DNA of 64,000 nucleotides from Neckera pumila (Eukaryota; Streptophyta; Bryopsida; Hypnales; Neckeraceae): contig OZ018409.1 of the NCBI GenBank assembly GCA_963969595.1, forward strand, positions 16,090,975 to 16,154,974, given 5' to 3'. Both the position numbers and the translations under genes were made by a program. The stretch's first letter is position 1; the number at the start of each line of letters is the position of its first letter. Shown piece after piece: positions 15,269 to 63,145 of this stretch. The notes under the pieces are model-generated. The model was not told the DNA's origin and ran no database searches. It saw nothing but the letters and a program-made list of their open reading frames with translations.

Positions 15269-15448
15269 TTTTTAATTTTTTTTAATAATTTTTTAATCGG
15301 AATTTTGGGTTCCTGCGCCACTACCGTTGCAATTTCAACAAGGCGGAAATAGGGGGAAAACGAATTTTTGAGCAAAAAAAAAGTAAACTTCAAGATACCT
15401 CGGAGGACTGTAGAGCAGCCCTCCAAAGGCCTGAAATTTTCTCTAATG
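15013..15448. mobile_element. MITE, CATTAGAGAAAATT family
   Basis: A 436-bp element with ends CAATAGAGAAAAATTCAG and CTGAAATTTTCTCTAATG. It is collinear with 30606-30971, sharing for instance GTTGACATG..GCATGG and the GGAG..CTCC subterminal motifs. It contains an (AT)n run at about 15222-15264 that expands its length. The frame at 15265-15459 is spurious. Confidence 0.7.
15222..15264. repeat. (AT)n microsatellite
   Basis: About 21 uninterrupted AT units inside the MITE at 15013-15448. The equivalent place in 30606-30971 has only a short A/T-rich run, so the expansion is specific to this copy. Confidence 0.9.
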
Positions 15449-15464
15449 CAATTCAACATTTTCT

Positions 15465-15603
15465 ACATTTGATTTTCTTTTAATTTGGTCTTCATTTAAC
15501 TTTTGGATCTTTCTAAATTGATATAGTTTTTATTAAAAGCCGTCCTCTAAGCCGTTTTAATGCCAATGATCCTTGCATATAATACATGAGTTACGTACCT
15601 GGG
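15465..15603. repeat. Solo right end of the P-like transposon family
   Basis: This 140-bp stretch matches the last 135 bp of the element at 54299-63137. Both contain the AAAAGCCGTCCTCTAAGC motif and end in G-AGTT-x-CGTACCT-x-GG. No corresponding left end or target duplication was found nearby, so this is a fragment or a solo end. It shows that the family is present in more than one copy. Confidence 0.65.
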
Positions 15604-17465: not shown

Positions 17466-17779
17466 GGGCCTCTTCACACTATGGCCGTCCAAGTCAAGAG
17501 GTCGTGGGATTGAGAGTCCAAACTTTTGGTGAGAGTCCAAAGAAATGAGCAATAAATGATAGTTTTTGGAGCCTTTGGCCGGCCATAGTGTGAAGCCTTC
17601 AAAGGCCAAGCCCAAAGTCCAAACCCATGGCAATGAACTCCCATGGCCTCTCAACTTGGACGGCCATAGTGTGAAGCCTTCAAAGTCCAAACCCATAGCA
17701 TTTGTATGGCTTGTATCCATCTCTCTTTACATAAATAACCCATGTAATTTCTGAAATTTTAATCTCACCTTCTCTAATC

Positions 17780-19243
17780 ATGGAGTCTAGAAAGGAACGC
17801 ATTCTTGTTTTGCTTTCGGTTTTCTTGGTCATAAAGTATGTCATTGTGGGCATTTTGGCATTGCAAAAAGTTGCAATTTTTGAACAAAATGCCCAAATGA
17901 TGATGATGGCAGTTTTTATTGTCCAAAGACAGAGGGTGAATTCTCAAAGGAAATGTTGGCAATTTCCAAGATATGGAGGTTTTTTGGAGCATACACTTTT
18001 GGGGACATTTTCAGATGGTGATTTTCGGAAGTGGATGAAAGTGAATAAATCTACATTTCAATATCTATATACTCTTTTGGGGCCTGTTTTGCAAAAGAAG
18101 GATACACATTTCAGAGAAAGTATTAGTGTGGAGCGGAGGATTGCAATAACTCTTTCTCGATTAGCAATAGGTAGTTCTTTGCAAATGATTGGTGATTTAT
18201 TTGGTGTGGGATTGAGTACAACATCTATTATTGTGAGGGATTGTTGTGAAGCTATTAGGCTTCATTTGAGACCATTAGTTTTTTAAAAACCAACTCTTGC
18301 TTCAATGAAACAAATAGCAAAGGGTTTTGAGGCACTACATGGTATTCCGCTTATTCTAGGGGCAATAGATGGTAGCCACATCCCTATTACAGCAGCATCT
18401 CATGACCCTGTAGCATACTATTGCCGAAAGGGATATTATTCATGTTTACTACAAGGGGTTGTTGATGCCGATTGCAAATTTTGGGACTATGATTTTGGAT
18501 GGGCTAGACGAATTCATGATTGGGCCTTATTTCAGAAATCTGAAATTGGGAAGAAGACTATAAGAGGTGCATTTTTACATTACAAATTCATTGGTGATGT
18601 TGCAAATCCTATGAGGCCGTGGTTTTACTCACCATTCAAGGGAGAAAGAGAAGGATTGTCTAGAAGAAAAGCACATTGGAATTTTATCCAATCGAGCACT
18701 TGTATGGCTATGGAAAGAGCCTTTGGAATTCTAAAAGGAAGATGGCGCATATTACTGAGAAGAATTGACATGCCACTCCAAAATGTGCTTGATATTATTA
18801 CAGCATCTCTATGTCTGCACAATTTGTGCATTCTAGAGAATGATGAATTCTCCATGGATTGGGTTAAAGAAGCAGAGAAAGAGCTACAAATTGAAGTCAA
18901 TTCAAAATTCGGAAAAATGCAAAGAACAGATATGTTTCACTCTCTCGAATCATCATTGAGGGAAATGAAGGAATTCCAGAAAAAAAATCCACAAACCAAG
19001 GAAACTCGATTCATAGAATTTGGAGAAGAAGAAGAAATCAAGAATGTGGAAAATCCTGCACGTGAAGAAACAAAGATAGAGCGACAAGAGAAAATGAAGA
19101 AAATGTTGGCTGATTCAAGTCGAGTTCATCTATTACTAGCCGAGACCTTTTACAAAGATCATTTGGCTAGAAATTCAGACATTCAGTTTGAAAATTGTAT
19201 TTCAGATGACGATGATGATGATCGTAGCATAGATGAAGAGTAG
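17780..19243 (+). pseudogene. PIF/Harbinger DDE transposase, one nonsense codon
   Basis: A nearly intact transposase of about 487 codons. An N-terminal helix-turn-helix region lies around ERRIAITLSRLAIGSSLQMI. The RNase-H-like core has the first Asp in AIDGSHI, the second in RRIHDWALF and the catalytic Glu in MERAFGILKGRWR, followed by SLCLHNLC. GDVANPMRPWFYSPFKG is the usual motif between the second and third acidic residues. A single in-frame TAA at 18284-18286 splits it; the frame continues unchanged into KPTLASMKQ on the other side. An acidic tail (DDDDDD) ends the protein. In this family the enzyme cuts the TIRs and inserts at TWA-type 3-bp targets, working with the Myb-like partner. One nonsense base is the only visible lesion. 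Confidence 0.9.
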
Positions 19244-53095: not shown

Positions 53096-54283
53096 TTAAC
53101 CCCTAAAGGACCAACATGCATTTTTTGGATATATAAAAATTTTGGACAGGTATGTGTGACTAGAGATTTCCATATTTTTGGCCCAAATTTTAATAGAAGG
53201 TGAGGGCAAGGAATATCTTTTATATGCACTAAATTTCATGACATTTGGAAATATGAGTCAAAAGTTATGACTTAATATGTTACCTTTTTTTGTACCTAGG
53301 CAGTCTGGGCAGATCATAAAAAATCATTCTTTTCAAAACAAAAGTTTGAAATTGGTTTTCTAGAGTTACATATCAGTGAATAGCTTTGAATAATTCCATT
53401 TCAACCAATGAGTCAAAAGTTATGAGGATTTTTTGTTTGCACGCAGTTATAGATTTTCTACTCTAAAATAAACTTTGAAGTCCTTTATCTTACTCAATTT
53501 TCAATATTTTTTGAAAAAAATAAAATCCTAAGATGTAGATTGTTTATTACAACATTGCAGCCATTGGAGGTTGACATTTTTCAATTCCATAATTAAATTC
53601 TTAACAGTTTTGTATTTTGAATCATTTTTTATTACTGTCTACTTACAATTTTTTTAATCAATTGCAAAAGTGATTTGAAGTCTTTCAATCTTCTTTTCAC
53701 ATATCAAATTTAAAAATTTTTTCACCAAAAAAGTATGAGGTTAAAGGGCCTAATATGCATAACCCCAATCAACTTATGGCTTTTCAAAATCTACTCTACA
53801 ATTTTTTTAAATGAGTTTCTAATGTGATTTTTCCTCCAAGAGTGTATTTGAGGCTCATTTTCAAGAGCTCATAACACTACAAAAAGTTAAGATTGCAATG
53901 GGTACCTTTGCACAAAATCTTGAATAGAAAAATCATAATCAATCATTTTCAAAATCAGATTTTTGATGCTACAACTAGACTTCAAAAAGAATTTTACAAA
54001 AATATGAACTTCCAAAAACATCAATTTGGTTAGGATATATTTAACTTCAAAGTATTGTCAACACGAAAATTTGGTGCCTTGGGCATTTAGGGATTAATAG
54101 CTTGATGATCAAACATTATAATCTTTCAATCCATAAGTGTTGCTCTTGTGTTTTCTTTTCATATGTGATCACGTGTGGTTATAATTCAAAAAGAAATTAA
54201 TGTTTATCAAATTTTTGGTTTTTTCTTCAATTAAGAGCAAATTCCGAGAAGTACAAAAAATGCCTTAGGCATTTAGGGGTTAA
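53096..54283. mobile_element. Composite of TTAA-type elements
   Basis: The left end, TTAACCCCTAAAGGACCAA (53096), begins a stretch matching 44262-44830. At about 53655 this switches to family beta sequence ending CATTTAGGGATTAA (54097). A second beta end in the other orientation follows, ATTTAGGGG-TTAA (54280-54283). It is best explained by nested insertion of beta into the first element plus rearrangement. Non-coding. Confidence 0.6.
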
Positions 54284-56616
54284 AAAGCAACAATCCAACC
54301 CGGGTACGCAACTCCCGCATTATATGGCCCTGATTACAATCACTTATAATGCAATTTAGTCCAATCCTAAAGAATATAATTTGTTTTAATTTAAGAAAAT
54401 CTTGTAGCCCTTTCAACAAGGAATCCAAAAATGTAATTTTATGTATAAAATGAGTACTTTTGAAGACAATAATAGCATTAAAAACTTAATTATACGAGTT
54501 TTTTTAATACATGTATCATGGGACAAGCTACCCAACTTTGGGGGCTCTTTAACAAAAATTTAATATAAATAATACATTGCAAATGAATTTTAATTTTAAA
54601 TAGAGGGAACTTTTTGTATAAATTTCTTAAAATTATGCATAGGCAACTTTTAGGTGTGATGGTTGAACTAAAAGATTGATAAAAGAATGACATTGGGATA
54701 CTGCTGAGGTAGGTGTTATTAATGATCAAAATGTCACAACATATCCAATGTATCTTGAGGGTATCAACCCCGGGTATCTCAAGGGTGTTTCAAGGGTATG
54801 GAATATCAGGTATACCCTAAAGTTTAGTACCATTTGGGTCTTTCTCTTCCTCGGGTCTCTTTGTGCTGTGTTTTCCGCCGCATTGTTTCTCACCTCTCTG
54901 CCGGCCGTCATTTTCTCTCAGTTTTCATGTGGACTGTTGTCTTTGATGTGGAAGGTTGTCGCAATCCTTTTTGAGGCAATCGTTGTAGAGGTATGGAGGT
55001 TTACATTTGGAGTATTGTTGTGGAGCATCAGTGTAGAGGATCACGTTTGGAGAACATAGAAACACGCTCCTAATAGGTTCAAAATCTGCATTTCACAGGT
55101 AAATACATGTGTCTCTCTCCTTCTGCCTGCGCTTACAGTTTGTGTTTTGAGTTGTGTGATCAATGTTTGGGCTTATTTGGGCAGTGTATGTTTTAACGAA
55201 GGTGTTGCTTGACTCCTTCGCTCTTTGCTTACAAAGTTGCAATTAGGTGCTTTTAAGTCCGGAGCATTAGTTCGTTGCATGTGGACGTTTGTCTATGGAG
55301 CATTGGTTTGTTGCTTTTGGGGCGTTTGTCTGTGGATTAGGATATGATGAGAATACTACTAGTGCTCAAGAGTGGCAAGAAAGCCTCCAAAACTGTTGAC
55401 AACCATCACTGTCGATCCTCAAAACTTGGAGAACATAGTATGCACGTCGATCCTATGTACATTAGTTTAGATCATAGGTGTATTGTATTTACACATCAAC
55501 ACACGGCATTTCTTGATGATCGGCACCAATGGTTTGACAATGAAGGGAACATTGGTTTCTTGCATGTGTGCGTTTTTAAACATAATCAAGAGCATGATCA
55601 GGAACTTAATTAGTAACGTGATTAGGATGTGAAATATTGCAATTGTTTGTTTCATTGTTCCACTTGTATACAACTGTTGAAATCTAGCAATATTTACTAC
55701 CGAAACAAAATGGGACTAAAAGTTCAACTACCGCCGAAATTACAATCACCAATCATATTACTCGTATCCTGATCAAGTGATACATACCTCTGATATGTAG
55801 TTTGAAACCTCTAGCACTTGAAACTCACACGCACTTGAAACTCACACTTTTGAGGAAGACTTTGTCGTCCTGTCAATCGCGTCCTTCTTGCCAACCCTCA
55901 CCATGCATTATTTTGCTTCTGGAGTGCTTTGCTTAAGGCTTGTTCTGCGATCGTTTGGGCAATCTGGTGTTTGCTTGATTTGATCCATTCCTGTTGTACT
56001 GTTGAGAGTCCTAGATGAGCTTCGATTGACTCTTCTCAGATTTACTCAATTTTGTGATCAATAATATGACCTTCTTTCGATGCTTTTTTTAATTCAACTG
56101 AAATTGATTGTGGTTTTCCATTGTTGTTTCATTCTTGCAGCTTCCTAGGACCTTGGAAGCTGAAAGTTCCTGCTCGGAGAATTTTAACTCTACTTGTTGT
56201 GACGTCTCTACCTATTGCTAGGAATTTGAACAGATAAGAATTTTAAGAACTTAAATTAGTTCAAAGGCCCTTGGGGTCTTTGTATTTAGCCTATAACTCT
56301 TCAATTGTGGTTTAAGATATCAATTGTGATGCATTGTTATTTATATTCTATTATGATCATTAATTTAGTTTGAGGTAAGAACTTGAAGAAATAGGAATTC
56401 AAATCAGCTTGAAAGGTCCTTAAGGTCCTTGTATTTTAGGCCCTTCTAGGATTAAACTAGCTAGGAAATTGAATTTGAATCCTTATTGATTAAATATGAT
56501 GAACTAAATGGTTAATTATGACTAGGTGATTCAGTTTTTATTCAATTTTTATTGATGGATGTGTTCATTTGGTAATTCATTATTGACATTGCTTTTTACT
56601 TTTTCAGAATATACTG

Positions 56617-56905
56617 TTTTTTAAATTTATTTTAAATTTGTTTTAAATTTGTTTTAAATTTGTTTTAAATTGTTCTAAATTTATTTAGAATTTATTTAGA
56701 ATTTGTTTTGAATTTATTTTGAATTTATTTTGGATTTATTTTGAATTTATTTTGAGTTTATTTTGAATTTGTTTTAAATTTATTTTGAATTTATTTGAAT
56801 TCATTTTTAATTCATTTTTAATTCATTTTTAATTCATTTTTAATTCATTTTTAATTCATTTTTAATTCATTTTTAATTCATTTTAATTCATTTTTTAATT
56901 ACTGC
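56617..56905. repeat. Period-11 A/T tandem array
   Basis: About 26 units of 11 bp. The unit drifts along the array from TTTTAAATTTG through TTTTGAATTTA to TTTTTAATTCA, the last being nearly perfect for about eight copies. It lies in the 5' non-coding part of the P-like element. Confidence 0.85.
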
Positions 56906-57390
56906 TTCATCAACAAGTTTCAAAAAATTGTTACATTTGGGTTTTTAAGTTCACCTCAATCTTGTCTTTTTTCAAGAACTTTTTAAAAGTGGTTGTTTTC
57001 TTTTTTGTATTTAGAGCTTCTTGGTTACATGGCAATCCCTACTCTAGATCCTATGTTTTCTTAGCAATTTTATATGACCTATTTTTTTATTTTTTGTTTA
57101 ACTCTATTAGTGTTGGACCAACACATGTAGAATTCTTCATCAAATAATGTTGATGATGTAGAATTTGATTCCATCTGATTATTTTTTACTACAATATAAT
57201 TGATTCAATTAGTCATTTAAAAACTATTAATCCTCGATTCTAACGGGATTGAAGTCTAGCCCATGGCATAAGTGATTAGTAGGATTTAAGATTCTAAAAA
57301 GTCAAATTTTATTATAAAATTTTTTGAAAGAAATTTTAGTAATTTCAAATGGATTTGTATTTATGATGCAAATGTGGTGTTACTATTGGT

Positions 57391-58395
57391 GTGTTACTCT
57401 TTGGATTGGAGCACTTTAGTGATCCTCTTCAACTTGGGCTATATTACAACATATCAATTTGGAACCAAGGATTCCAAGGGTTGAGGATGAATGGTGTTAA
57501 ATTCCTAGAGTGCAAGCGTCTTATAGGTTGCAATGGAGATGGTTGTTTGTTGTTTGACCTTTCAGATGAAGACCCCTTGCTTTGTGATTGTTGCACTTGT
57601 CATAGAAGTTTTCACCATGCAATTTTTGATAGACCTCCAAGTAGTGGTGCTTGTGTAAAGAAACACAATGGTGAGGTTGATGGTTGCCAACTATTTTATC
57701 CTGATGTGGCCAATGTCCGTAAATGTGGTGCATGTGGATGCCACAAGTCATTACATCAGCCTCACCATCAGGTTCACACCAAACTACATGGAACTCTGTT
57801 ATAAATATTGTCCCTTCATCACATGGTGATATTATGTTGATAGATGATGATGATGATTGCCCAATAGAACCTGTACCTAAAAAGCTAAAAGTAAATGATG
57901 ATGTGACTAATGTCAGTGGTACTCACTTGCCTTTTGCCAAGGTGAAATTAGAGTTTCCCATAGGTGACACTAACTCTGAGATTATAGACATGGATGTTAT
58001 TGATAACTTGGAGGTTGATATGGTTGGCATATCCAAGAAGCTGCAAAAGAACTGGGAATTATTAGTGAAAATGTATCCAGAATGTGACTTTGGTAGGTTT
58101 ATTCCCTGCCTTTCCAAGGATGTGAAAAAGGGTTTGTCAACTTGGATCATTTGGTGTGATCCTTGTCAAAAAGAGATGTGTATTAATCCAGGGAAGTCAT
58201 TCAACTTGTCCAACTTTGAGATACATCTTCAACCCAAATTGTCTCTCAAACATGGAGTCCCTAGTGATAAATCAGAGCATGAGATGGCTTTGTTGGAACA
58301 AGGAAGAGTGGCTGAGTTCAAATTGCAAGCTGCTACAACTGCTGAACTTACTGAACTAAAGAGGAGATCTTGGATAGTGAAGCATACTTCAGAAG
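57391..58395 (+). pseudogene. P-like element protein, N-terminus with two ZF-HD-like fingers
   Basis: The first recognisable coding part. Finger 1 (residues about 36-77 from 57391) has VKFLEC..DGCLLF..LLCDCCTCHRSFHH. Finger 2 (about 87-125) has CVKKHNGEVDGCQLF..KCGACGCHKSLH. Both follow the C..DGC..F..CxxCxCHRxFH pattern of plant ZF-HD/mini-zinc-finger proteins. The frame shifts by one near 57790-57820 (an indel or unrecognised intron), then continues through an acidic patch and a conserved block (WELLVKMYPECDF..WIIWCDPCQ). It ends at donor GAAG-GT (58396). The true start is unknown. The likely role is DNA binding or dimerisation of the transposase, by analogy with ZF-HD. Confidence 0.75.
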
Positions 58396-58577
58396 GTAAT
58401 TATGTTATTTTATTAAATTTTGGACAAAGTTTATTTCATTTTATATTGCATGCTTTTAATGAAGGTTTGTGGTTGTATCTGAGGGACTATAATTATCTCA
58501 TTTTTCTTAATTTTGGATAAGTTTTATTTTATTTCATAATTATATGCTTTTAATGAAGGTTTATGGTTGTATTTTAG

Positions 58578-59712
58578 GGACTGTAATGATTGATGAGAAT
58601 CATTGGAGATGCACAATATGTAACTACAAGGGAAAGTTTGGGCAAAGAGACACAATTGGTGTTCACATGAAAGGGGCAATACACCTACAACCAAAGAAAA
58701 ACAAGGACGTCGATGGTGGGGGAGGTAATCAACTTACTATTGCTGCCTCTCTAGCAAAAGGGATCAGATCAGGAGCAGCTAAGTATCCTCCATCTTTTAT
58801 CTCTAATCCTATTGATATTCCACATCATGTGTTATTGAATTACATTGAAAAAAATGTTTTGTCATGGATTCTACACTAAGTCATTAGTCATAATGAATGA
58901 GGTGGTAGATTGTAGCTTGTTACTAAATGATCTTCATGTTGGAACATTGTGGTATCCTGATCCACATTATTCTCAATGTATACAAAAAAATGATGAAACT
59001 CTCTACATTAAAGGGACATTTAGGCATGTTGATTGTTCTATCATGTTTTGTAACATGTGTCCCTTGATTCCAAAAGGAACTAACTTCAAAAAAAGAGCTT
59101 GGCGTTCAAGTCAGTCAGTAGTTCCTAGAGGAGAACGATCCATGCAACGTGGTACTCATTTTGATTATCTTCAACATGAAAAATTGATCACCTCAGCTAG
59201 AGAGTGGGAGAGGAGAACTAATGCATATAGTGGCCAAATTTTTATGTTGAATTCAGCTTTAACTAGAGCAACAATAGCCAATCAATATCTTTAGCATAAA
59301 TTGAAGACTACTTTGATTGAAGGCTCACTTCCTGAAATAGCAGAGGTTTTTAGGTAGGCTGTAGATTGTGGAGCTTTTCAAAAAAGGTCCACTTTGTATA
59401 ATCTTTTGTTTGATACAGCCTCCAGTTTGATCTCAGTTCACATTTCACAAATATGGTGGTGATGGTCATGGAAAGAGGTACCACCTAAGCACTGTGAAAT
59501 TATTTGAAGTAGTGCACAATTTTGGTGGGGCTTCTACTCATAATTTTCTTTCTTCCAATTTGTTAGGGCCAGTTATAAATACAAGCCAAAAGATATATAA
59601 AAGTGAGGGATTCTTGTATACAGTTGGTCTGAATGAGGAAACATTTATTCACTTGTCATCAATACTAACAAAGTGCAAAGAGAAACTTGGAGTTTCAGGT
59701 CCTATTCCTTTT
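58578..59712 (+). pseudogene. P-like element protein, C2H2-like finger and middle region
   Basis: Follows the intron 58396-58577. It begins with a C2H2/BED-like finger (CTICNYKGKFGQRDTIGVHM then H). After a frameshift near the A run at 58853 comes a conserved block, EVVDCSLLLNDLHVGTLWYP, with a Cys cluster (FCNMC). In-frame stops at about 59292 and 59354 and a further frameshift near 59460 follow, then GDGHGKRYHLSTVKLFEVV and the segment ending SGPIPF with TAG at 59713. The region links the DNA-binding part to the catalytic core. It is clearly no longer translatable. Confidence 0.65.
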
Positions 59713-59715
59713 TAG

Positions 59716-61007
59716 TGCTCTAAAGATGAAACCACGTGTATTGCACTAGCAACTCTCAATAGGCGCAATGACTTCATTGATGGATTTTGTGGAACCAAAG
59801 CTTCTTTGGAAACCCTCATAAATGTTCATTTGATCCAAAACCATCAGTTGCTAGCTTTGAGTCAATTACAAATGCTTTTTCAAACTTAAAGGTTGGTACT
59901 ATGTGTCGCGTATTAGTGGCAAATCCCTTCGTAAAAGGAATGCCTAGATTGATCTATAGAATATTAACCACATGTAATAAGTTTGATGCTGCCCAGGTTA
60001 AGTTGCAATGGGCACATATTGCAACTTTGCACAAGAAGCATCTAGAGGTGGCTGTTGGTCCTCTTAGAGGGCATGCAAGTGATGGTGACGCAAGGAGGAG
60101 AAAATTGATGCTAGAGAGCATTTACAGAGTTACATTTGGGCTGAATGAAGATGGCTTTTTGATGAAGTCAGAGGTTGTTGATGGACAGCCATTAATCATG
60201 GTACAAGGTCCAATACATGTGGGTAAGAAACTTCGGAACCCTTTGTTGAGTCCTCAAAGGACTATATTTTGGGGTCATTTTTTGGCTCACAAAAACCATT
60301 TGCAATTGGTAATTGGATTGTTTACTAGAAATGAGCATGGTTTATTGGATGAAGATATAAATGTAAAGGATAAACAAAATTATCCAGCAGTACAACGTAT
60401 TTCATTTCCCCGGGTTAGAGCATGTTTAGAAAAATTACATGCTGGAATAGTTGTAAAAGGGGTCTTCAAGAAGGAATGTGTGTTGGGTACAATAATTCAC
60501 TTAGAAGTCTTATGGGCATTTTTAGAGATTTTCTATGGACGTGGAACAATGTATGAGAAGGTAATGCTTGCTTCATTTGTTAGTCATATGCTTTATTATG
60601 GAGCAGAGTACATTCTTCATCAAAAGCATGGTCATACCATTGGAGGCAATTGGATGAGTAGAGAGACCCGCACTGATTGCCTCATATCTTGTCATGCTTT
60701 TGTTAATTATGTTAGAATGATGAGAAATACTTACCCTCATTTGCCATGTCCATTAAGTAATATTGGTTCAGATTGTTGTGAGGACTTTTTTCCCGTCTTG
60801 GGCTACAAATGAAGAACAAACATACATTTTCTGTTGGAGAAGCTATTGAAAGATGTTCTCACATTGGCAAAACTGAGCAAATTAAGTATTCTGATGATGG
60901 AATATCATTTGCTCAATCTCGACGGAAGAAGAATATATGGTGGTTATCAAATGCCCAAGTGGCAGGTTCTAACTTGTGTGATTATGCCTCAGTGATTGAT
61001 GAGAATT
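59716..61007 (+). pseudogene. P-like transposase catalytic core, decayed
   Basis: Starts with SKDETTCIALATLN (candidate first Asp at 59725-59727). It then shifts frame near 59800 into a 341-codon open stretch (59787-60809). Recognisable motifs there: GHASDGDARRRKLML (Asp at residue 99), GPIHVGKKLRNPLL (141-154), NVKDKQNY, and GSDCCEDFF with Asp 329 and Glu 332. P-element and THAP9 transposases have, in the same order, a DE motif, SDG..NRK, a DP.H.lK.iRN motif and D-x-x-E-N-FF. Another shift at about 60808 leads into SVGEAIERCSHIGKTEQIKY and a basic patch (SRRKKNIWW). The frame is cut at 61008 by the TTAA MITE. Confidence 0.75.
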
Positions 61008-61940
61008 TTAACCCCTAAAGGACCAAGGTGATTTTCCGACCAAAAACCATTCAAAACTGTCATTTCTATTGCAAAGAGAAAAGAGTTTAAAAAATTGTTT
61101 TTTTTTGCATATCCAACCATAAGATCTTATACTTGACTAGTATATGAATATGTGGAAGAAATTTCAGAAACTTTGACCACGTAGATTGCAAGATATATGC
61201 ATTTAAAGTGAAGAAAACAAGTTTTTTTCCACCTTGCTTGACCAGATTTTTTGGCTTTGAATCTTTTTAGTTCAATTTTTTTGCACTACTGATTTTGATT
61301 TTCTACTTATTTATGTTAAGTAGTTGAGTTGAGAATCTACCAAAAAAATTGAAGAAAAAAAGCACTTAATTTTCACTCATTAAAAAATTGTTAAGTAGAG
61401 GTGGGTTTAAGATTGAAGAAAAAACTAAATTGGTAATAGCTTTTAGATGGAATTGAATCACAATAATCCCAATGGTGAGATTGTTCTAGCAAGAAAATCT
61501 AACCCTTTCTAACAATTTTTTTTGAAAAATTCTCAAAATTGCATTCAAAAATGAATTCTACAACTTATTTTTTCAAGAAGATGCTTAGATTGCCCGAAAA
61601 ACTAAGATTGTCCATAACTTTCTCATTATTAGTCCAAATTGAATGAAACAAAGATTCACATGTAGACAAAAATATAATCTTTGAGGAAAAAATTTGAAAA
61701 AAAATTATTTTGACTTTTTGTGATTTTTTTTGTGCTGCCCGCAAAATTCCAATTTTACTTATTGTGCCATAACTTTTGCTCCCGGGCATCAATTAAAATA
61801 AAAATTATATATTCACAAAGATCTCGCAAAAATATACAACCTCAAAAAATCCCGAAAAATATTACTAAAAATTGAGATCGTAGGAACCTGCCCGGACCCA
61901 AATTGTCCCCCGAGGGGACAACCGGTCCTTTAGGGGTTAA
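61008..61940. mobile_element. TTAA-flanked MITE, family alpha, inside the P-like gene
   Basis: Perfect TTAA at both ends (61008-61011 and 61937-61940) and 13-bp perfect inverted ends, CCCCTAAAGGACC / GGTCCTTTAGGGG. The body is 925 bp, the same as the copy at 599-1530, in opposite orientation. Removing the element and one TTAA joins the upstream codons (GAG AAT TTT AA) to G AAG GCT TGG and keeps the transposase frame open for a further 18 codons. Best-preserved member in the window. Confidence 0.88.
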
Positions 61941-62936
61941 GAAGGCTTGGTGTGAAAGCATTGTCATAGCGCAAAATAGGGCTGAGAGGGCTCCATGAAG
62001 GAAGTACTCCAAACATCAGGGAAATGGACTAACCCTAAGCCCCCTTCTTTTAGTCATGAATCATTAGCTCATAATACACATGTTAATTGTATAGAGAAAA
62101 CGAACAATCATTTTGTTGATGATGGACCTCTTAGAGAAGCCAGAGTAGTTTTACAATCAACATTATTACATGCTGAGCAAAGTGATGATGCAAATAATAG
62201 AACTTTGAGTGTAGGCTCAAAAAATACTTTAAAACACTCTTCTACAATTGAAGTACCAGATAAAGGTCAAGTATACAAAATGAGGTTAATTTCTGAATTG
62301 AACATACACTCCCTTGAGAAGTTGCCCTTGGATAGGTTGAGGCGTGTTAGATATAAAAGTACAGATTCAGATGCTTATGTGCATGATGATGATCAAGTGC
62401 ATATTGGATTGTTTGATGATGTAGGACTTTTGTTTGATGAAGGTAAGGGTAAGTTGGGATGGCACATTGGAAGAGTGCAAAAAAGAGTCAAGGCTGTTGG
62501 AGAAAAAGGAGTCCAAGTGGATTATGTACAAAGTGTTTCACTTCTTGATGAGAAAATCAGTATATTGCCCAAGTATTACAAGCACATTGTAGGATTGCAG
62601 TATACATATGGAGGTTATGAAGGAGCTGAATGCAACTTTATTGGCTTGGAGAGTGTTGTATGCATTGTTACAGTTGTCATTGATGCAGATAAGGATGTTT
62701 ATACATTGGCTGTAGAGGATCATGATGCCTTGGACAAATATGTAGATTGTGAGATGAAGCGTAGAGGTTCATGTGGTGGAGTTAGTAATAGGGAGAAGAA
62801 GTGTGCTACATCTGTAATTGCTACAGCTCCTTCCAAAAGAGGGAGACCTCAAAAGGGCCCTATAGTATCACCAAATACTATTCTGGCATCTACTTCTGAC
62901 ACTCCCATTAGACGCTTTACAAGGTTAACAAAATAA
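61941..62936 (+). pseudogene. P-like element protein, C-terminal region with AT-hook
   Basis: Continuation of the interrupted gene. The frame joined across the MITE reads KKAWCESIVIAQNRAERAP and then hits a stop at 61996. A single missing base there would carry it into the long open frame 61995-62936 (KEVLQTSGKWTNPK onward). The rest is intact for 313 codons. It includes HIGRVQKRVKAVGEKGVQVD, a Tyr-rich segment (YYKHIVGLQYTYGGYEGAEC) and a basic tail, SKRGRPQKGP, with an RGRP AT-hook core. It ends at TAA 62934-62936, about 200 bp before the element end. A DNA-binding tail is a plausible role. Confidence 0.65.
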
Positions 62937-63145
62937 GTGTTTCAATTCTTCATATATATATTGTGAAGTTTTTTTAATAAATATGCAACCCAACATTTTC
63001 TAGATCTATTTTATTTAATTTGGTCTTCACCTAACTTTTTGGTCATTTTAATTCCATATAATTTTTACAAAAGCCGTCCTCTAAGCTGTTTTAATGCCGA
63101 TGACCCCCATGTATAATATAGGAGTTGCGTACCTAGGCAATCCAA

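Follow-up and report, generated by a model that had tools for sequence, protein, structure and literature searches.

A decayed moss transposon with a P-like predicted transposase core and two ZF-HD-type zinc fingers

The Drosophila P element and THAP9 combine an RNase H fold carrying a helical insertion and a D/D/E triad with short terminal inverted repeats, target site duplications (TSDs) of 8 bp and a THAP domain. TSDs of 8 bp are also made by hAT transposons. Plant ZF-HD (ZHD) and MIF proteins are characterized by the PF04770 finger with the pattern C...DGC...C..C.CH..H. A 2017 paper gives ZF-HD counts of 17 for Arabidopsis, 15 for rice and 7 for Selaginella and, citing a 2008 study, describes ZHD and MIF as land-plant specific, not found in algae and of unclear origin (PMC5585987); zf-HD is also stated to be absent from red algae and chlorophytes (PMC3880041). 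The list of land-plant superfamilies with terminal inverted repeats in a 2022 review comprises Tc1-Mariner, hAT, Sola, MULE, PIF-Harbinger and CACTA, and P is absent from that list (PMC9033089). Here we describe an element within a 64,000-nucleotide stretch of the moss Neckera pumila (contig OZ018409.1, positions 16,090,975 to 16,154,974; "the window" in the following). Like P and THAP9, it has a predicted RNase H fold with a helical insertion, D/D/E, 8-bp TSDs and short terminal inverted repeats; unlike these, it possesses two ZF-HD-type fingers and C2H2-like motifs and no THAP domain was found, it may have an extra C-terminal barrel, no sequence-profile similarity to them was detected, and its named hosts are streptophytes. 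With a probability of about 0.9, we consider it the decayed copy of an autonomous DNA transposon that moved by cut-and-paste and belongs to a P-like lineage. The original prediction of a plant transposon combining a P-like core with ZF-HD-type fingers is thereby supported. In our judgement the element works like a P element and is not to be filed as one, because fold, triad and TSD agree with P but neither a THAP domain nor a match to a curated profile was found.

The whole transposon spans 54299 to 63137 on the plus strand (8,839 bp), as delimited by the inverted repeats, the 8-bp TSD and homologous two-ended copies in the genome:

54291 to 54298, no strand: left TSD CAATCCAA, exact 8-bp repeat
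54299 to 54324, plus strand: left terminal inverted repeat (inverted pair of 22 nt at 86%; agreement with the right end at 21 of 26 bases)
63112 to 63137, minus strand: right terminal inverted repeat, pairing with the left one
63138 to 63145, no strand: right TSD CAATCCAA, exact 8-bp repeat
15446 to 15603, plus strand: right end belonging to a second copy (80% identity across its final 155 bp)

The left end opens with CCCGGGTACGCAACTCC and the right end is an imperfect inverse of it, 15 of the outer 17 bases matching. A scan for exact 8-bp repeats flanking a 17-bp inverted repeat (at most two mismatches, spacing 200-15,000 bp) identified this element as the sole such place in the 64 kb, and no such combination occurred in 20 block-shuffled control windows. 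The predicted ends and perfect duplication were confirmed, also by the agreement of other genomic copies. At the second copy in the window (15446-15603) similarity halts at the outer base of the inverted repeat; its left end was looked for and not found. The 5' part of the element contains an 11-bp tandem array of 25 copies (56619-56894).

Further copies were collected from the genome (339.5 Mb, 18 contigs). The left 402 bp of the element as query gave 55 matches, with 40 of 477 candidates scored, and left-end matches of about 272 bp number at least 40; the exon-1 protein P0047 gave 31 matches (40 of 40 candidates scored). Fifteen genomic stretches were read for copy structure, with the ends located by blastn. 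Besides the window, both ends were present in five copies (L019, L020, L021, L025 and L028); L022 together with L023 has the left and a partial right end, L024 the left end only, and the remaining stretches neither. Four of the five two-ended coding copies (L019, L020, L021, L025) carry both fingers inside the ends and on the transposase strand, as in the window, and in the fifth this portion of the exon is missing; fingers outside the ends, named beforehand as refuting, were thus not found. TSDs read by eye were perfect in L020 and L021, matched at 7 of 8 positions in L019 and 6 of 8 in L025, and were not recognised in L028; in a scan of ten loci, the latter two among them, no exact 8-bp repeat accompanied by 14-bp inverted repeats was detected. 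The genome also harbours a non-autonomous family of about 517 bp (L006, L007, L043-L048), whose eight copies read all measure 516-519 bp and are all flanked by perfect 8-bp duplications, each differing from the others. At L008, one of nine loci read for short copies, the right end was not found within the flank. A related-locus search of viral and genome contigs returned 50 and 47 pattern matches, none of which was confirmed.

The transposase core and the parts adjoining it are arranged as follows:

58842 to 59429, plus strand: C-x5-C-x2-C region preceding the RNase H domain (tblastn to P0001)
59431 to 60800, plus strand: P-like RNase H core with helical insertion domain in broken frames (sequence and predicted fold)
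59725 to 59727, plus strand: first candidate catalytic Asp, SKDET (D379 of P0001, by alignment)
60081 to 60083, plus strand: second candidate catalytic Asp, ASDGD (D499 of P0001, by alignment)
60780 to 60782, plus strand: candidate catalytic Glu, DCCED (E732 of P0001, by alignment)
60812 to 61007, plus strand: post-RNase H segment, split by a nested insertion (similarity to relatives)

The 343-codon core lies at 59781-60809. When the predicted fold was compared with the PDB by Foldseek, only two matches reached E<=0.001, both to P-element transposase structures (6pe2/6p5a), and no clear match to another superfamily emerged. In the VIA fold search, P stood 9 Z units above the next fold, with 411 of 442 residues aligned and the insertion domain spanned, and the predicted model places helices between the second D and the E. 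The three candidate residues are invariant in the relatives wherever aligned; their match to D230/D303/E531 of P was judged by order and spacing, not by coordinates, the D2-E spacing being 233 here versus 228 in P (P numbering from PMC7776569). The P-like core claimed in the original prediction is supported by these fold comparisons, without a significant Pfam or PDB sequence match, and the relation to P is drawn from predicted fold only. GTP binding by the insertion domain would be a putative property, by analogy with P.

Alternatively, the element may belong to a superfamily of its own that likewise has 8-bp TSDs and shares only its fold with P, possibly through convergence. This explanation, which overlaps with our reading of a P-like element that is not P, appears rather unlikely, as the lead of P over the next fold, an aligned range that covers the insertion domain, the nearly equal D2-E spacing and the 8-bp TSD, as in P, speak against it. 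Unlike in hAT transposons, no hAT transposase or dimerisation domain was listed by Pfam among 40 members, nor was a KDZ domain. Hermes and other hAT structures were not among the VIA rows listed, which does not by itself exclude hAT. The element shares the motifs AEDET, ASDGD, QDxxHxxKK and GxDCCEDxFS with the eukaryotic transposase-like proteins P0011-P0046, and differs from these in its fingers, as K. nitens P0006 was the only one of the 40 members scanned, many of them N-terminally incomplete, to show a ZF-HD match. P0011-P0046 form a large family that no Pfam transposase model was found to cover, with some members on contigs of more than 1 Mb.

The fingers lie upstream of the core:

57487 to 58395, plus strand: first coding exon, containing a single frame change and followed by a GT donor (58396); it encodes two ZF-HD-type fingers, a linker and a C..C..H block
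57508 to 57627, plus strand: ZF-HD-type finger 1 (Pfam PF04770, two stretches in the open reading frame)
57646 to 57759, plus strand: ZF-HD-type finger 2 (PF04770; matches the K. nitens finger)
58155 to 58253, plus strand: C-x2-C...H block, aligned with a C2H2-like motif of K. nitens
58396 to 58577, plus strand: predicted GT-AG intron containing a 94-bp tandem duplication
58610 to 58684, plus strand: C2H2-like finger in exon 2 (motif reading)

Both predicted ZF-HD-type fingers proved real, the window exon matching PF04770 in two stretches with 30.5 bits (cut-off 27, as throughout). P0047, L020 and L032 scored 39.9, 40.2 and 37.7 bits. The additional C2H2-like finger is readable as a motif, but matches Pfam only weakly (E 0.088, below cut-off). 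The description of the fingers as a plant DNA-binding domain holds for the presence of the ZF-HD domain, but Pfam names PF04770 a dimerisation region and does not give DNA binding. As in ZHD/MIF proteins, the finger is of the PF04770 type; unlike in these, no homeodomain match occurred in exon 1 and the following pieces scanned, and the fingers are tandem and fused to a transposase. THAP matches were found neither in the 40 members nor in exon 1 of the window and of P0047-P0049. A search of database proteins with exon 1 yielded five relatives among 303 candidates, three of which carry PF04770 at 75% identity, P0049 retaining finger 2 only. P0047 spans the predicted intron junction in register, and P0048 and P0049 read into the intron. 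In Klebsormidium nitens (Streptophyta, Klebsormidiophyceae), one finger and C2H2-like motifs precede the same core in the same order. Among divergent lineages of the genome, L032 scored 37.7 bits for finger 1 and 13.9 for finger 2, and finger pairs in L027 and L031 remained below cut-off (17.2 and 17.5 bits).

Because the exon recurs in database relatives, divergent genome lineages and K. nitens, the sequences indicate that the ZF-HD fingers are an old part of the transposase and not a chance capture. In the simplest reading, they became part of the transposase before the lineages of the window and of Klebsormidium diverged, unless horizontal transfer occurred. Recent capture of a host ZF-HD gene fragment, which would make the fingers mere passengers, is very improbable: host ZF-HD genes exist in the genome and the finger part is absent from P0051 and L028, yet in several copies and in divergent lineages a single exon encodes the fingers, in one frame, together with sequence specific to the transposon, and the order is the same in K. 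nitens. Domestication as a host gene, to which the long open database relatives P0001 (1154 amino acids) and P0002 (1111 amino acids) might point, is refuted for this element by its inverted repeats, TSDs, numerous left-end matches and non-autonomous derivatives.

Several observations weigh against a P-like transposase with built-in fingers. With regard to the core, the D1-D2 spacing is 120 residues versus 73 in P, the Foldseek TM score by query is 0.28 and the mean model pLDDT 66. PDB sequence searches with the core and its relatives gave no P match and only unrelated hits, much of it helical or acidic sequence; Pfam found, over the 40 members, only TNP-like_GBD in one (E 0.13, 13.1 bits, cut-off 24.8). 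At D541, conserved in 45 of 46 rows, the window copy carries G. With regard to the fingers, L028 retains only residues 158-312 of exon 1 and lacks the finger half, and two of the five exon-1 proteins (P0050, P0051) are without PF04770, P0051 holding other sequence there. The single K. nitens finger scores 20-22.5 bits, under the cut-off, and the liverwort relative P0012 (Calypogeia) had no ZF-HD match in the Pfam scan. A genome-wide PF04770 search gave nine matches (34 of 34 candidates scored), including three host ZHD domains, the L032 lineage and L030; the window, L019-L021 and L025 are not among them, so that membership of the window type in the Pfam family is weak. Ratios of nonsynonymous to synonymous change in the finger region ranged from 0.33 to 1.56 on 7-24 changes in ten pairs (15 pairs less five with the window copy), which settles nothing.

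The remaining parts of the element and the insertion within it are:

61012 to 61936, no strand: nested 925-bp repeat, not part of the transposon (TTAA duplications at 61008-61011 and 61937-61940)
61995 to 62933, plus strand: C-terminal transposase part (similarity to relatives)
62391 to 62744, plus strand: BAH/chromo-barrel-like domain (fold prediction, suggestive)
62835 to 62861, plus strand: AT-hook-like RGRP motif (motif reading, not found in relatives)

The predicted C-terminal AT-hook is present in the window as RGRP, but none of the 51 relatives retrieved, some of which end before this point, contains [KR]GRP, and the motif is not conserved. The predicted fold of the C-terminus weakly resembles a chromatin-reader barrel of the BAH/chromo-barrel type, which, although only suggestive, has more support than the AT-hook as a C-terminal feature. 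In correction of the original prediction, the window copy is dead: by our own piecing, its reading frame contains at least five frame changes, three in-frame stops and the 925-bp insertion. Repeats with CCCCTAAAGG ends beside TTAA or a near match occur at 61012-61936, 603-1526 and 53100-54280; the second is 77% identical to the nested copy, and the third, which ends just before the left TSD, has little beyond the ends in common with it. Elsewhere in the window, remains of a PIF/Harbinger-type transposase were identified at 17735-19243 (DDE_Tnp_4, E 3.3e-22), and close by, on the opposite strand, an open reading frame has a weak match to Myb/SANT that falls below cut-off.

We propose that the transposase would bind its own ends through the N-terminal zinc-binding modules. 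As the Pfam domain is a dimerisation region, the ZF-HD pair may serve mainly for self-association, standing where P has THAP and a leucine zipper, and the C2H2-like fingers and the helical domain may contact DNA. Cutting and joining, with an 8-bp stagger, would be the task of the RNase H triad and its helical insertion, which in P binds GTP; the C-terminal BAH/chromo-barrel-like domain may guide insertion via chromatin, and the same protein would mobilise the copies of about 517 bp.

ZF-HD-type fingers also occur outside the transposon. L034, L035 and L036 are canonical host ZF-HD domains of more than 100 bits; L037, L039 and L040 are partial and may be intron-split. L030:4160-9114 (G000:C4:30520000-30529900) is a TIR-NB-LRR-like gene whose first open reading frame places ZF-HD-type fingers (one PF04770 match of 32.3 bits, the second by eye) ahead of a TIR domain (E 4.8e-11); an NB-ARC-like stretch, scoring below cut-off, and LRR segments come next. 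It resembles the element in its N-terminal fingers, which score higher against certain transposase fingers than against host ZHD domains, and differs from it in its immune-receptor architecture, with no P0001 match in its 9.9-kb stretch. We tentatively raise the possibility, doubtful at present, that the ZF-HD/MIF finger descends from this P-like transposase lineage, with a second recruitment into a TIR-NB-LRR receptor. A precedent for the transposase origin of a transcription-factor domain is the Paired domain (PMC4901127), which probably descends from a Tc1-type transposase. As to the suggested bearing on ZF-HD/MIF origin, a tree of 12 hand-cut fingers was too short to be rooted and gives no order between transposon and host fingers. 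Our literature search, which left Repbase unsearched, found no paper on a P-like transposon combined with ZF-HD. With a mobile element carrying tandem ZF-HD-type fingers and a relative in a streptophyte alga, the origin of ZF-HD becomes directly testable, and P-like transposases gain a large eukaryotic family for which we found no Pfam transposase model and which has a different N-terminal module.
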